The notes under the pieces were generated by a model. It was not told the DNA's origin. It was given only the letters and a program-made list of their open reading frames with translations, and did no database searches. Source: Hyphomicrobiales bacterium (GTDB lineage: Bacteria > Pseudomonadota > Alphaproteobacteria > Rhizobiales > JAJFHB01). Taken from it: a stretch of 46,934 bases of DNA. A program made the translations under genes and the position numbers. Positions within the stretch are counted from its first letter, which is position 1. Every line of letters starts with the position of its first letter. Below, in pieces: positions 33,124 through 43,801 of the stretch. Where the stretch lies: positions 1 to 46,934 of the forward strand of contig JAJFHL010000014.1 in NCBI GenBank assembly GCA_021775615.1. Reading direction: 5' to 3'.

Positions 33124-34146
33124 ATGACCGGACTTACCGAGAAATTTGAACGATATCCCTTGAGTTTCGGGCCGACCCCGATCGAGAAGCTGGCGCGATT
33201 GAGCGATCACCTCGGCGGCGCGGTGGAAATTCATGCCAAACGGGAAGACTGCAACTCGGGCCTTGCCTTCGGCGGCAACAAGATCCGCAAGCTGGAGTAT
33301 TTGGTGCCGGACGCGATCGCCCAGAACTGCGACACCCTGGTGACCATCGGCGGCGTCCAGTCGAACCACACGAGGCAGGTCGCCGCGGTGGCCGCCAAGA
33401 TCGGCATGAAATGCCGTCTCGTGCAGGAGAGCTGGGTGCCGTTCAACGACGCGGTCTATGACCGTGTCGGCAACATCTTGATGTCCCGGGTGATGGGCGC
33501 CGAAATCGAGCTGGTCGACGAGGGCTTCGATATCGGCATCCGCGAGAGCTGGGAACGGGCGCTGGAAGATGTCAGAGCCAAGGGTGGAAAACCCTATGCC
33601 ATCCCGGCCGGCGCCTCGGTTCACAGGCTTGGCGGCCTTGGATATGTGAACTTCGCCGACGAAGTCCGCGAACAGGAAAAGGCGCTCGGCTATGCGTTCG
33701 ACTATATCGTCGTCTGTACCGTCACCGGTTCGACCCATGCCGGCATGCTGGTCGGCTTTGCCGCCGACGGCCGGCAGCGCAACGTGATCGGCATCGACGC
33801 GTCGCACACTCCCGAACAGACCCGTGTCCAGGTCCTCGACATCGCCCGCAACACCGCCGGCCTCATTGAGCTCGGCTCGGACATTGCCGAGGACGACGTG
33901 GTGCTCAAGACCGAGTACGCCTATCCTGAATATGGCGTGCCGTCGGAGGAGACCAACGAGGCCATCCGCCTCTGCGCCCGCCTCGAAGGCATGATGACCG
34001 ACCCGGTCTATGAGGGCAAATCCATGCAAGGTCTGATCGATCTGGTGCGCCAGGGCTTTTTCCCGTCGGGCTCCAAAGTGCTCTACGCCCATCTCGGCGG
34101 CGTGCCCGCCATCAACGGCTACAGCTACCTCTACCGCAACGGCTAG
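33124..34146 (+). CDS. acdS: 1-aminocyclopropane-1-carboxylate (ACC) deaminase
   Basis: This is a PLP enzyme that opens the cyclopropane ring of ACC, the plant ethylene precursor, giving 2-oxobutanoate and ammonia. It has 340 residues. Key residues follow the true AcdS pattern: Lys53 ([11 protein letters not shown]) for PLP, the [12 protein letters not shown] segment, Tyr296-Glu297 (DPVYEGKS) and Leu324 (YAHLGGV). These correspond to the Tyr, Glu and Leu that separate ACC deaminase from the related D-cysteine desulfhydrase. A GGAGG site precedes the start. It is divergent from the Lrp-type gene. Its TAG stop (34144-34146) is the first three bases of a dispersed repeat. Confidence 0.95.
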
Positions 34147-39229: not shown

Positions 39230-40030
39230 CTAAACCACCGCGACCCTCTGGTCGTGGCCTTGATCAGCAGCCTTCCCGTGCTGTCCAAACAGCCGATTGG
39301 CAGACGCGAAATCCTCTTTCGTATCGATCTCTGTCCAAGCCAGCCCGGTAATATCCAGAGCATGAAACGGCGTGTTTCGATCAATCAACCTCTCGTATGC
39401 GGACTCGTAATAGTCCTGATGGTTTACCGGGTCCGCCATCATGGTTGAGAGCTCTGCAAAGAGGGTCTTCGCGGTCGTGCTGCTGATTTTCTCGATGCCG
39501 ATTGACTCACCGATGGCCAATTTTGCATCTACGGTCTTGCTGGCCCGCACCACCCGGTTGCCAGCCTCGACAACGACCTTGATCTCCTCTGCATCAAGCT
39601 GGATGTTTCGGTCGATACACAGGCAGTTGTCATAAGCGCTGTCGATCAGTTTCCTGAGGATGTCTTGGTCAAAGACAACGTCCGCATCGAACTTCACGAA
39701 TCCGTTTCCGTTGGCAAACGCTTCTGCCAGCATCAGGGAGTACCCTGTATTGGTTTCAGCGAACCTGTCATTGAGGACGAACTGCACCGAAAGATCGGGA
39801 AAGGTGCTCGACACAAAGTTTTCGATTTCGATGTCGAGATATCCGAGCACAATGATCACTTCGCCGATGCCGCAATCGCGTATGTTAGTGATCATCCTTT
39901 CAAGAATGGTGATCCCGCCGACCTTCAGCAGGCACTTTGGGCAGCTGTCGGTCAAAGGCCTAATTCTCGATCCCACTCCGGCGGCCAGAATGATGGCCTT
40001 GAGAGCGGGCGGCGGATTGGTTGCATTCAT
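39230..40030 (-). CDS. Cytidylyltransferase, PntC/LicC-like (probable CTP:2-aminoethylphosphonate)
   Basis: This is a nucleotidyltransferase of 266 residues. The N-terminal signature is AIILAAGVGSRIRPLT at about 12-27, with Lys32 in CPKCLLKVGG. FDADVVFD around Asp115 and Asp117 binds metal. WTEIDTKEDFASANRL near the C-terminus matches LicC/PntC proteins that make CDP-choline or CMP-aminoethylphosphonate. Its neighbours, a CDP-alcohol phosphotransferase and an AEP-type transaminase, favour the phosphonate substrate. In published PntC systems the product CMP-AEP feeds transfer onto a lipid or glycan. Phosphocholine or phosphoethanolamine substrates remain possible. Confidence 0.85.
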   Translation of the reverse strand: MNATNPPPALKAIILAAGVGSRIRPLTDSCPKCLLKVGGITILERMITNIRDCGIGEVIIVLGYLDIEIENFVSSTFPDLSVQFVLNDRFAETNTGYSLMLAEAFANGNGFVKFDADVVFDQDILRKLIDSAYDNCLCIDRNIQLDAEEIKVVVEAGNRVVRASKTVDAKLAIGESIGIEKISSTTAKTLFAELSTMMADPVNHQDYYESAYERLIDRNTPFHALDITGLAWTEIDTKEDFASANRLFGQHGKAADQGHDQRVAVV

Positions 40031-40084
40031 CTAACAGGTTCCGTTTAAGGCAGATCTTGAGGATCGCAGGCGCAGAAGACAGGT

Positions 40085-40852
40085 CTATTTTTGAACCGAG
40101 GTTTTCTGGTCGTGGCCGATGTGACGGCCATGTTGCCAGGACCGGTAAAGGCCGTAGTACAGCTGGCTGGCGGCGAACACCCAGAGCATCGGGGTCAGGA
40201 TATCGAGCACCAGTGCAAGTGAAAGCATGAAGATGAAGACGCCCTCGTCGAACGCCAGAATCTTTTTCTGCTCGGTCACAAACCAGCGAAGGTTAGCGGC
40301 AAAACCAAATCCCGGCCCGGCGTCATTGGGTGCCGTTTTGGCCGTTGCGACTTTCACAAGATAGGCGCTGTCGCGCGACATCTCGGTGTGGATCGCGACG
40401 TATTTCGCGTAGCCTCGAAGGGAGTAAAAAGAGACGCCGACGAAGGCCAAAATCAAGGGCATGACATCGTGAGACTGCAAGTAGGCAGCATATCCCACCG
40501 CCCCGAACCACACGGTCACCTGGATCTGGTCGGTCAATCTGTCAACGTAACTTCCCAATGCAGACGGGGTGTTCCGGTAGCGCGCCATCTGGCCGTCCAT
40601 GCAGTCGAGCACGTGGCTTGCCTGAATCAGAATGGCCGCGATGACGAAATTTACCGCACCTCCCAGAACAACAAAGACCGCGGAAACAATCGCGACGATG
40701 AACGACAGCAACGTGATCCGGTCCGGTGTCAGCCATTTGGCATCGACTGCAAAGTAGTTGGCACCGATGGCCAGCGGCGAGGTGACAAACGAGGACCACC
40801 ACTCATCATTCGTGTTTTTGGTGGCCCACAGGCGGACAAGTTTTTGGTTCAT
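40085..40852 (-). CDS. CDP-alcohol phosphatidyltransferase-family membrane protein
   Basis: This is a membrane enzyme of 255 residues with about six helices. The complete family motif D-x2-D-G-x2-A-R-x8-G-x3-D-x3-D is present: Asp83, Asp86, Gly87, Ala90, Arg91, Gly100, Asp104 and Asp108. It transfers a CMP-linked headgroup to an alcohol acceptor. In this operon it would place a phosphonate (or phosphoethanolamine-like) group on a lipid or glycan. Its start overlaps the transaminase stop by 4 bp, and a 54-bp gap leads to the cytidylyltransferase gene. The acceptor is unknown. Confidence 0.88.
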   Translation of the reverse strand: MNQKLVRLWATKNTNDEWWSSFVTSPLAIGANYFAVDAKWLTPDRITLLSFIVAIVSAVFVVLGGAVNFVIAAILIQASHVLDCMDGQMARYRNTPSALGSYVDRLTDQIQVTVWFGAVGYAAYLQSHDVMPLILAFVGVSFYSLRGYAKYVAIHTEMSRDSAYLVKVATAKTAPNDAGPGFGFAANLRWFVTEQKKILAFDEGVFIFMLSLALVLDILTPMLWVFAASQLYYGLYRSWQHGRHIGHDQKTSVQK

Positions 40853-42036
40853 GTGCCGGCGATTGCAGGTGCGTAAACGCCGCTGTTGTCGTGAGCCTCA
40901 TGGGCTGGCGATAGCGGGACAGCGGCGATCTTCTCTTGGGCAACAGGCTGAAAGCCCTGCAGAACTTCACCAAGCGCGGCGAGGAAGACCCGGATATCCC
41001 TGTTCGACAACTCTCCAATATTTCCGACCTGAAATACCTTGTTCTTGAAGCAGCCCTTGCCTTCATAAATGACGATGGAGCATTCACGAAGCTTCTGCCG
41101 GAGCCGGCCAACATCAACATTGGGCGGCACAACGACGGTGGTCAGAACAGAGCACATGTCCTTCTGATCGATCAGAAACTTGAGGCCCAGTTTCGCCATG
41201 CCACGCCGCAAGAGGCGGGCGCGCCTCCTGATCTTGGCATAGCGATTGGATACGCCCTCCAGCAGTATGTTGGAGAGCGCCTGGTCGAGCCCGTAGAACA
41301 GCGGAACACCCGGCGTGTTCGGGGTCTGGGAACGTGCGCTCATGAAGGCATAAAAGGTGGCGAGGTTCAGATAGGCCGTTTTGACCGGATTGTGTTTCAG
41401 CTTCTCGAATTCCGCCGTTTCGCCGACCACAAAGGACAACCCGGCGTATGAGCCAATCGCCTTTGAGCTTGAACTGGAACAGAACGCTATGTTGCAGGCT
41501 TCCATGTCGACGGCCTCGGCGCCGGCGCTGCTGACACAATCAACAACGAAAAGCGCGCCGTGCGATTTGGCCAGCCCACCGATGACCTGAAGCGGGTTCA
41601 GCATGCCCGTGCACGTCTCGTGATGAACCATCACAACCACGTCCATATGGTGTGTGTTCAGAAATGCTTTTACGACGTCCACATCGATGCTTTGCCCCCA
41701 GGGAAACTCAAGCAGAAAGGTATTCGCATTGTGGATGTCGGAAATCTTGTGAAGCCGCTCGCCAAACTCCCCGTTGGAGAGAATCAGGACCTTCTTGTCG
41801 CCGACCACGGACGAAAGCATTGCCTCATTGGCGGCAGTTCCAGAGCCGGTGATCACAACCGCGCTGTAGCGCGCCTTGTTCTTGATTTCGAACATCTCCA
41901 GAAGTTTGTGTTCGATGCCTGCCAATAGATCATCAAACTCGGCTTCACGGTGACAAATATCGTTTTTCGCAATGGCCAGGCGGACGTTTGCGGCCACATT
42001 GACCGGGCCCGGCGTGAAAAGCATGAACTGGTTCAT
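40849..42036 (-). CDS. 2-aminoethylphosphonate-pyruvate transaminase-like enzyme
   Basis: This is a class V PLP aminotransferase of 395 residues. Marks are LFTPGPVNV at 6-14, GSGTAANEAM at 64-73, HHETCTGMLNP at 138-148, VVDCVSSAGAEAVDME at 164-179, and the PLP-binding Lys192 (SSSSSKAIGSYAGL). The C-terminal IVIYEGKGCFKNKVFQVGNIGELSNRDI resembles AEP transaminases. It could make AEP from phosphonoacetaldehyde, or run in the catabolic direction. It heads the three-gene operon. No pepM, ppd or phosphonatase (phnX) is in the window, so whether phosphonate is made or taken up must be decided elsewhere in the genome. Confidence 0.87.
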   Translation of the reverse strand: MNQFMLFTPGPVNVAANVRLAIAKNDICHREAEFDDLLAGIEHKLLEMFEIKNKARYSAVVITGSGTAANEAMLSSVVGDKKVLILSNGEFGERLHKISDIHNANTFLLEFPWGQSIDVDVVKAFLNTHHMDVVVMVHHETCTGMLNPLQVIGGLAKSHGALFVVDCVSSAGAEAVDMEACNIAFCSSSSSKAIGSYAGLSFVVGETAEFEKLKHNPVKTAYLNLATFYAFMSARSQTPNTPGVPLFYGLDQALSNILLEGVSNRYAKIRRRARLLRRGMAKLGLKFLIDQKDMCSVLTTVVVPPNVDVGRLRQKLRECSIVIYEGKGCFKNKVFQVGNIGELSNRDIRVFLAALGEVLQGFQPVAQEKIAAVPLSPAHEAHDNSGVYAPAIAGT

Positions 42037-42674: not shown

Positions 42675-43571
42675 TCAGGTCCAGCGGAGCCGGTCGCATA
42701 TGCCGGCAAGCCTGATCCCCGAATATTGGTTCTCCACTTCGGCGGCCACTCTGGCGACCCCCTCAGGGTTGCCCAGATCGCCAAGTTCGGCGGCATGGAT
42801 ACCGCCGGTTATGAAATAGACGTCAAACCCGTTTCGGGCCGCGCCCTCGATGTCAGTGGGCAGCCCGTCGCCGACCGCGAGCAGGCGGTTCTTCGCGACG
42901 TTCCGGCCGGCCAGCTCCGACACCTTTGCCATGGCGGCATCATAAATAGGCGCCTGCGGTTTGCCGGCGAGGGTAACTCTTCCACCCATTTCCGAATAAC
43001 GCCGGGCAATCGACCCGGCGCACATCACCAGCCGGTCGCCACTGCGCACCACCAGATCAGGATTGGCGCACAACATCTCGACGCCCTGGTCCAGCATCGC
43101 CGAGAGACGGCCATCATAATCTTCCACAGTTTCGCTGGCGTCGTTCATCGGTCCGGTGAGCAGGCAGAGTTCCGCCTCCGGCCTGTCGACAATCGGATTC
43201 GGCAGGCCTTCCAGGATCATATGATCGCGCGGCGGACCAAGATGAAAAAGCGGCGCCTTCGGCCGTTTCTTGACCAGCGCTTGGGTGACGTCTCCGGAGG
43301 TAACGATGCTGTCGAATGCTTCGCGTGGCACGCCCAGCCGCTTCAGCTGCGGGTAGACAGCCCGGCAGGGGCGCGGTGCATTGGTGATCAGAACAACATA
43401 TCCGCCGCCTGCCCGGTACCGGCACAGCGCCTCAACAGCATCCTCGAATGCGGCGACGCCATTGTGGACCACACCCCAAACATCGCAGAGCCAACCGTCG
43501 TAATGCTCCGCCAGTTCACTGGCCGGGGTGAGCACATTTGGCCGAACCAAAAGTGGGAGGGCGTGGCTCAT
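42675..43571 (-). CDS. HAD-superfamily hydrolase, TIGR01459-type (subfamily IIA)
   Basis: This is a 298-residue HAD hydrolase. From the ATG at 43571, motif I is Asp30-Val-Trp-Gly-Val-Val-His-Asn-Gly (LCDVWGVVHNG), motif II is VLITNAPRP, and the distal motif is AVGDGLPTDIEGA. The cap arrangement is that of subfamily IIA (NagD-like sugar or nucleotide phosphatases). TIGR01459-type proteins are common in alphaproteobacteria. The frame is open to 43607, but only 43571 gives the usual N-terminus. Substrate unknown; it stands alone. Confidence 0.92.
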   Translation of the reverse strand: MSHALPLLVRPNVLTPASELAEHYDGWLCDVWGVVHNGVAAFEDAVEALCRYRAGGGYVVLITNAPRPCRAVYPQLKRLGVPREAFDSIVTSGDVTQALVKKRPKAPLFHLGPPRDHMILEGLPNPIVDRPEAELCLLTGPMNDASETVEDYDGRLSAMLDQGVEMLCANPDLVVRSGDRLVMCAGSIARRYSEMGGRVTLAGKPQAPIYDAAMAKVSELAGRNVAKNRLLAVGDGLPTDIEGAARNGFDVYFITGGIHAAELGDLGNPEGVARVAAEVENQYSGIRLAGICDRLRWT

Positions 43572-43801
43572 TGCCCGCTGCCTACCGACCGGCGGGCGTC
43601 CGGTCAAGTATCAATTGGTCTTGAGGGTCCGTTGAAATCTGCCTTAAGCGGCGCGCCGCGAAGCCACAGCCCGCCCTTTTCCCGGTGCGGCGCAAGAATT
43701 CCTGAACAGGCGTTGAAGCAATCGTTGCCTTTTTTCCGGCATTGCAGTCCGAGATTGCTTCAGCCCTAGTTTCCGCTATCAGGAAATGCAACGTTGCCCG
43801 G

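Follow-up and report, generated by a model that had tools for sequence, protein, structure and literature searches.

A three-gene operon in bacteria of about a dozen phyla as a candidate PepM-independent route to an amine-bearing phosphorus headgroup

The window, that is, the whole 46,934-nt stretch of Hyphomicrobiales DNA analysed here, encodes a transaminase (AT), a CDP-alcohol phosphotransferase and a cytidylyltransferase (NT) in a single operon. Our reading, held with about even confidence, is that this trio constitutes a self-contained, horizontally spread three-enzyme route to an amine-bearing phosphorus headgroup and makes no use of PepM. In the proposed pathway, AT would convert a small aldehyde or ketone that carries a phosphate into an amino-phosphate by transamination, and NT, judging from its fold and residues, would join this to CMP using CTP. 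The transferase would then pass the amino-phosphate to an acceptor in the membrane, in the simplest case diacylglycerol, to yield an amino-phospholipid. The substrate, acceptor and product named here are putative. More tentatively, the product may be an undescribed amino-phosphate headgroup, defining a new class of amino-phospholipid or glycan decoration, formed by a new route in which a phosphorylated carbonyl compound is transaminated and then activated with CMP; the operon would have spread horizontally among marine bacteria from about a dozen phyla. Our literature searches returned no description of this trio and nothing on serinol-type lipids. If correct, the reading would add to nucleotidyl-activated surface tailoring a pepM-independent branch invisible to pepM-based genome surveys, and likely a new headgroup in marine bacteria. 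Because the trio is small, occurs on a plasmid and is found in culturable type strains, the reading is directly testable.

All three ORFs lie on the minus strand, where the preliminary description had placed them (Table 1), and belong to the Pfam/NCBIfam families Aminotran_5, CDP-OH_P_transf and NTP_transf_3. The 4-bp overlap reported for the first two genes is an ATGA junction, a gap of 54 bp separates the transferase and NT genes, and gene order is kept across phyla. The trio is an operon, as originally described, and the conserved order excludes chance. Of the 74 homologous operons of the main type, 55 have exactly this ATGA overlap, a count that depends on approximate start mapping. The G+C content of the trio is 55.1%, versus 60.1% for the window. 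The source genome is a draft (6.26 Mb in 392 contigs, 96.65% complete). Elsewhere in the window, positions 33124–34146 encode an ACC deaminase that matches TIGR01274 strongly (580 bits, where the cut-off is 392).

Table 1. Positions of the trio and its upstream neighbour in the window.
Feature	Position	Strand	Characteristics
AT, class-V PLP transaminase	40849-42036	-	395 aa; sister clade of the AEP transaminases; Schiff-base lysine K192; Gln336 replaces conserved Arg
CDP-alcohol phosphotransferase	40085-40852	-	255 aa; full motif D83...D108; invariant N-terminal DEWWSSF; predicted integral membrane enzyme
NT, PntC/LicC-type cytidylyltransferase	39230-40030	-	266 aa; conserved D115/D117, E209, W232-x-E234-x-D236
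ATGA overlap (4 bp), AT stop / CDP-alcohol phosphotransferase start	40849-40852	-	
HAD-IIA hydrolase (TIGR01459)	42675-43607	-	upstream of trio, same strand; outside core module

A single search of GTDB contigs, in which the transferase served as query, yielded 112 relatives, of which 80 were kept (57–90% identity). Their hosts represent about a dozen phyla, mostly marine judged by name, and include Alpha- and Gammaproteobacteria, Bacteroidota, Chlamydiae, Nitrospinaceae, Actinomycetes, Acidimicrobiales, SAR202, Aerophobetes, KSB1, Planctomycetes and Verrucomicrobia. Partners of the window type accompany the transferase in 74 of the 80 loci, with order (AT, transferase, NT) and strand kept wherever the contig extends far enough. 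Median pairwise identities are similar for NT (56%), the transferase (60%) and AT (61%). In the remaining six loci, from Planctomycetes and Verrucomicrobia, the same transferase (57–61% identity) is combined with a different AT and NT in the order AT'-NT'-transferase. That one transferase is retained with two AT/NT sets argues for a single product of the three steps and for enzymes that act as one unit.

The trio is rare among close relatives of its host. It was present in 5 of 397 genomes sampled from the order and, in a class sample of 385, only in the window's own genome. Orthologous trios occur in the genomes G001, G002 and G040 and in the complete genome of Rhizobiales bacterium IMCC20636 (CP018226.1, G042). 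A further copy is carried by plasmid NZ_CP025806.1 of Sulfitobacter sp. SK012; this is the one true match among plasmids, the others aligning at 27–31% identity over half of the transferase. Among viral contigs, 29 pattern matches included none encoding a relative of the transferase. The breadth of phyla, the plasmid copy, the rarity within order and class, and the interleaving of phyla in the AT tree point to horizontal spread of the trio.

The preliminary description labelled the trio a phosphonate-tailoring module and noted that pepM is absent from the window. The absence extends to the genome: in a profile search of the whole draft, the best PepM-like match scored 42.6 of the 319.55 bits needed. 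Ppd-like matches in this genome all fell under the cut-off, and the best of them are split genes (on C81 and C241), which were left aside as unrelated in a genome without pepM. One such alpha/beta decarboxylase pair (G000:C81, L040 9068–10131) resembles Ppd or sulfopyruvate decarboxylase and lies near TRAP-type transporter genes. The PepM motif EDKx5NS (PMC6697681) occurs in none of the 80 trio loci, searched up to 10 kb on each side. PepM was not found over the cut-off in G000, G001, G002, G040 or the complete IMCC20636 genome. It did exceed the cut-off in 2 of 50 trio-bearing genomes, of which one has the variant type of operon. In a sample of the phylum, 18 of 398 genomes have it, so that pepM is no commoner in trio genomes (Fisher p = 0.71 and 1.0; the tests used 44 main-type genomes of a list holding 45).

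These data bear on the idea that the trio is an ordinary phosphonate-tailoring cluster whose pepM and ppd lie elsewhere in the genome or were lost in assembly gaps. The incompleteness of the draft leaves some room for this, and one main-type trio genome, from SAR202 (L093), does have pepM. However, all but that one of the main-type genomes (counted as 45 or as 49) lack a PepM over the cut-off, many isolate genomes among them, and for IMCC20636, where a complete genome has the trio and no pepM, the idea is refuted. Nor do the weaker matches supply the enzyme. In G001, G002, G040 and IMCC20636, the strongest matches that were read out contain a KRCGH-type motif in place of EDKx5NS. Many of the sub-cut-off matches read out from trio genomes have isocitrate-lyase-type motifs, and the other fetched loci of such matches have no EDKx5NS either. 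A 285-bit match in G403 reads EDKx5TS rather than EDKx5NS and was not counted as PepM. Many trio genomes are incomplete metagenome-assembled genomes, in which a single absence carries little weight; the argument rests on the overall pattern and on the complete genome. We consider a hidden pepM very improbable.

AT is related to the 2-aminoethylphosphonate (AEP) transaminases and is set apart from them. It scores 296 bits on the PhnW-AepZ model TIGR03301, under the curated cut-off of 360.8, and its best sequence match in the PDB, far ahead of other solved proteins, is 6pd1, the PntC-AEPT fusion of Treponema denticola. Residues of the class-V fold are present, and K192, the PLP lysine, and D166 are invariant. 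In the AT tree, the trio proteins form their own clade (support 100/99) beside the clade of solved and pepM-linked AEP transaminases. The AEP transaminases have a conserved arginine near the C terminus, within F-R-[IV], at a position occupied by Gln336 in 73 of 73 main-type ATs. The arginine is present in 1m32, 9kk8 and 6pd1, in the pepM-linked ATs of L203–L205 and L210, and in the 7 variant ATs. Chen et al. are said to have found in 2002 that this residue in the Salmonella enzyme (1m32), Arg340, binds phosphonate or carboxylate. The exchange of Arg for Gln suggests a different substrate or donor for AT, although Gln336 might itself accommodate a carboxylate or phosphonate. Given its closeness to PhnW, AT could be scored as AEP metabolism when marine phosphorus cycling is surveyed.

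The solved structure closest to the predicted fold of NT is PntC. The AlphaFold model (pLDDT 91.6) superimposes best on PntC (6pd2, Z 31.5), followed by LicC (28.6) and sugar enzymes (28.5 and lower), consistent with the original assignment of NT to the PntC/LicC group rather than to the sugar nucleotidyltransferases. By sequence, NT matches 6pd1 and LicC equally well in a PDB search. The trio NTs form one clade (100/99); the deeper forks of the tree are weak and long branches meet, so that any placement with PntC or with LicC would be tentative. E104 and E196 of T. denticola PntC, which contact the AEP amine, align with D115 and E213 of NT. D115 is as in LicC; E213 varies, and E209 is invariant. 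The NTs adjacent to pepM share the D-A-D arrangement, so the acidic residues of NT do not discriminate between AEP and other amines.

The resemblance to LicC (1jyk), which shares its fold and D-x-D region with NT, allows for a Kennedy-type pathway in which NT would activate phosphocholine or phosphoethanolamine and the role of AT would be unrelated. RefSeq names NT as a member of the phosphocholine cytidylyltransferase family, and LicC is its second structural match. LicC operates in an operon for choline uptake and phosphorylation, whereas the trio has a transaminase instead. AT is always the first gene of the operon and is co-inherited with the others, no choline kinase recurs beside the trio, and the kinase-like proteins of trio operons that were tested gave no match to choline-kinase models. 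A choline- or ethanolamine-type pathway is improbable.

The preliminary description correctly identified the full CDP-alcohol phosphotransferase motif in the second enzyme, and the fold agrees with it. The motif (D83-x2-D86-G87-x2-A90-R91-x8-G100-x3-D104-x3-D108) is invariant in 34 aligned homologues; one further, variant copy has Lys at position 91. The N-terminal DEWWSSF sequence is unusual. The transferase model (pLDDT 85.5) is closest to AF2299 (Z 22.0) and IPCT-DIPPS (18.9), ahead of the PIP synthases and choline phosphotransferase. IPCT-DIPPS and AF2299 also resemble the trio in pairing a nucleotidyltransferase with a CDP-alcohol phosphotransferase, but they have no transaminase, and IPCT-DIPPS acts on inositol-type substrates.

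This likeness would accommodate a soluble, osmolyte-like phosphodiester or an inositol-type product. The transferase would in that case act on a water-soluble alcohol and link the CMP-activated amine to it, much as di-myo-inositol phosphate is made. A distant, variant AT'-NT' pair in an alphaproteobacterial locus (L035 396–5785) lies near an inositol-phosphate-synthase-like ORF, together with a different CDP-alcohol phosphotransferase. A common fold does not show function, however, and the modelled likeness does not fix the acceptor of the transferase. No inositol-phosphate-synthase family recurs by the trio, and an inositol product leaves AT unexplained. We judge such a product to have a small probability.

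The Pnt pathway is among the known systems closest to the trio. PntC-AEPT of T. denticola (Tde1415; PMC6697681; 6pd1/6pd2) combines the same transaminase and cytidylyltransferase families. The trio differs in that its enzymes are unfused, pepM and ppd are missing, AT lacks the arginine and a CDP-alcohol phosphotransferase is always present. Three gammaproteobacterial pepM clusters (L203–L205) provide a second comparison, since each contains homologues of all three trio proteins. The occurrence of these homologues in genuine pepM clusters indicates that a Pnt-like logic is sound for the trio. In L203–L205, unlike in the trio, pepM is present, fused to a second nucleotidyltransferase, and AT keeps its arginine. 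The proteins are distant from all three of the trio, with ATs scoring 248–267 bits on the trio profile.

The same clusters, together with 6pd1 as the best match of both AT and NT, lend some support to AEP salvage. Here seawater AEP would be imported, activated by NT to CMP-AEP and transferred to give a phosphonolipid, with AT adjusting the pool of AEP and phosphonoacetaldehyde. The mostly marine hosts fit this account, and a passage in PMC9381506 names AEP as the most abundant phosphonate in the marine setting. The shared 6pd1 match weakens our reading of an amino-phosphate, as it would fit AEP equally well as the substrate. Against salvage, the AEP-binding protein gene phnS2, the AEP transporter component covered in our searches, exceeds the cut-off in no more than 4 of 49 genomes with the trio, and no transporter gene is a recurrent neighbour of the operon in different phyla. 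AT would be needless in such a pathway or would destroy AEP, and its Arg-to-Gln exchange also argues against AEP. On balance, salvage seems unlikely, while retaining more than marginal weight.

Small P-loop proteins are encoded inside or just behind the operon in 10 loci (7 main-type, 3 variant). Five belong to family c10 (L072, L080, L094, L114, L138) and five to family c12 (L084, L085, L088, L090, L144). Members of c12 match uridine-kinase/AAA_18 models. A kinase in the operon would be more in keeping with a phosphate ester than with a phosphonate, although the argument is indirect. The limited occurrence of these genes, and the weak recognition of c10 by the kinase models, weaken the amino-phosphate reading. 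Given the lack of pepM enrichment, the loss of the arginine from AT and the kinases within some operons, the original phosphonate-tailoring label is not supported, and the headgroup is probably something other than a phosphonate. Among the three options initially offered (pepM elsewhere, salvage or a different headgroup), the last now fits best.

The HAD-IIA hydrolase upstream of the trio is 86–87% identical to the trio-linked HADs of G001 and G040, 56–61% identical to those in Rhodobacterales and only 45–46% identical to the HADs of its family and order mates G002, G003 and G005. Its greater similarity to HADs that accompany the trio in other lineages than to the ordinary HAD of its own family makes it probable that the hydrolase and the trio moved together in this lineage. 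The HAD, groESL and the remaining neighbours were rejected as core partners, since none of them recurs from phylum to phylum.

Several features of individual neighbourhoods were also observed. A protein of 355–381 aa is encoded beside or within three gammaproteobacterial operons (L092 4002–5093, L115 10678–11823, L075 11689–12756); the L092 member matches no Pfam family. A single case is the BcsA-like cellulose synthase (L046 16938–19121) that IMCC20636 encodes some 5 kb downstream of its trio. Finally, groEL, often with groES, is found near the trio in 16 loci, mostly from Roseobacters and including one gammaproteobacterium (L096, L099, L106, L111, L115, L119, L126, L128, L130–L132, L135, L139, L140, L142 and L143), and also near the trio on the Sulfitobacter plasmid (L175 14339–16305).
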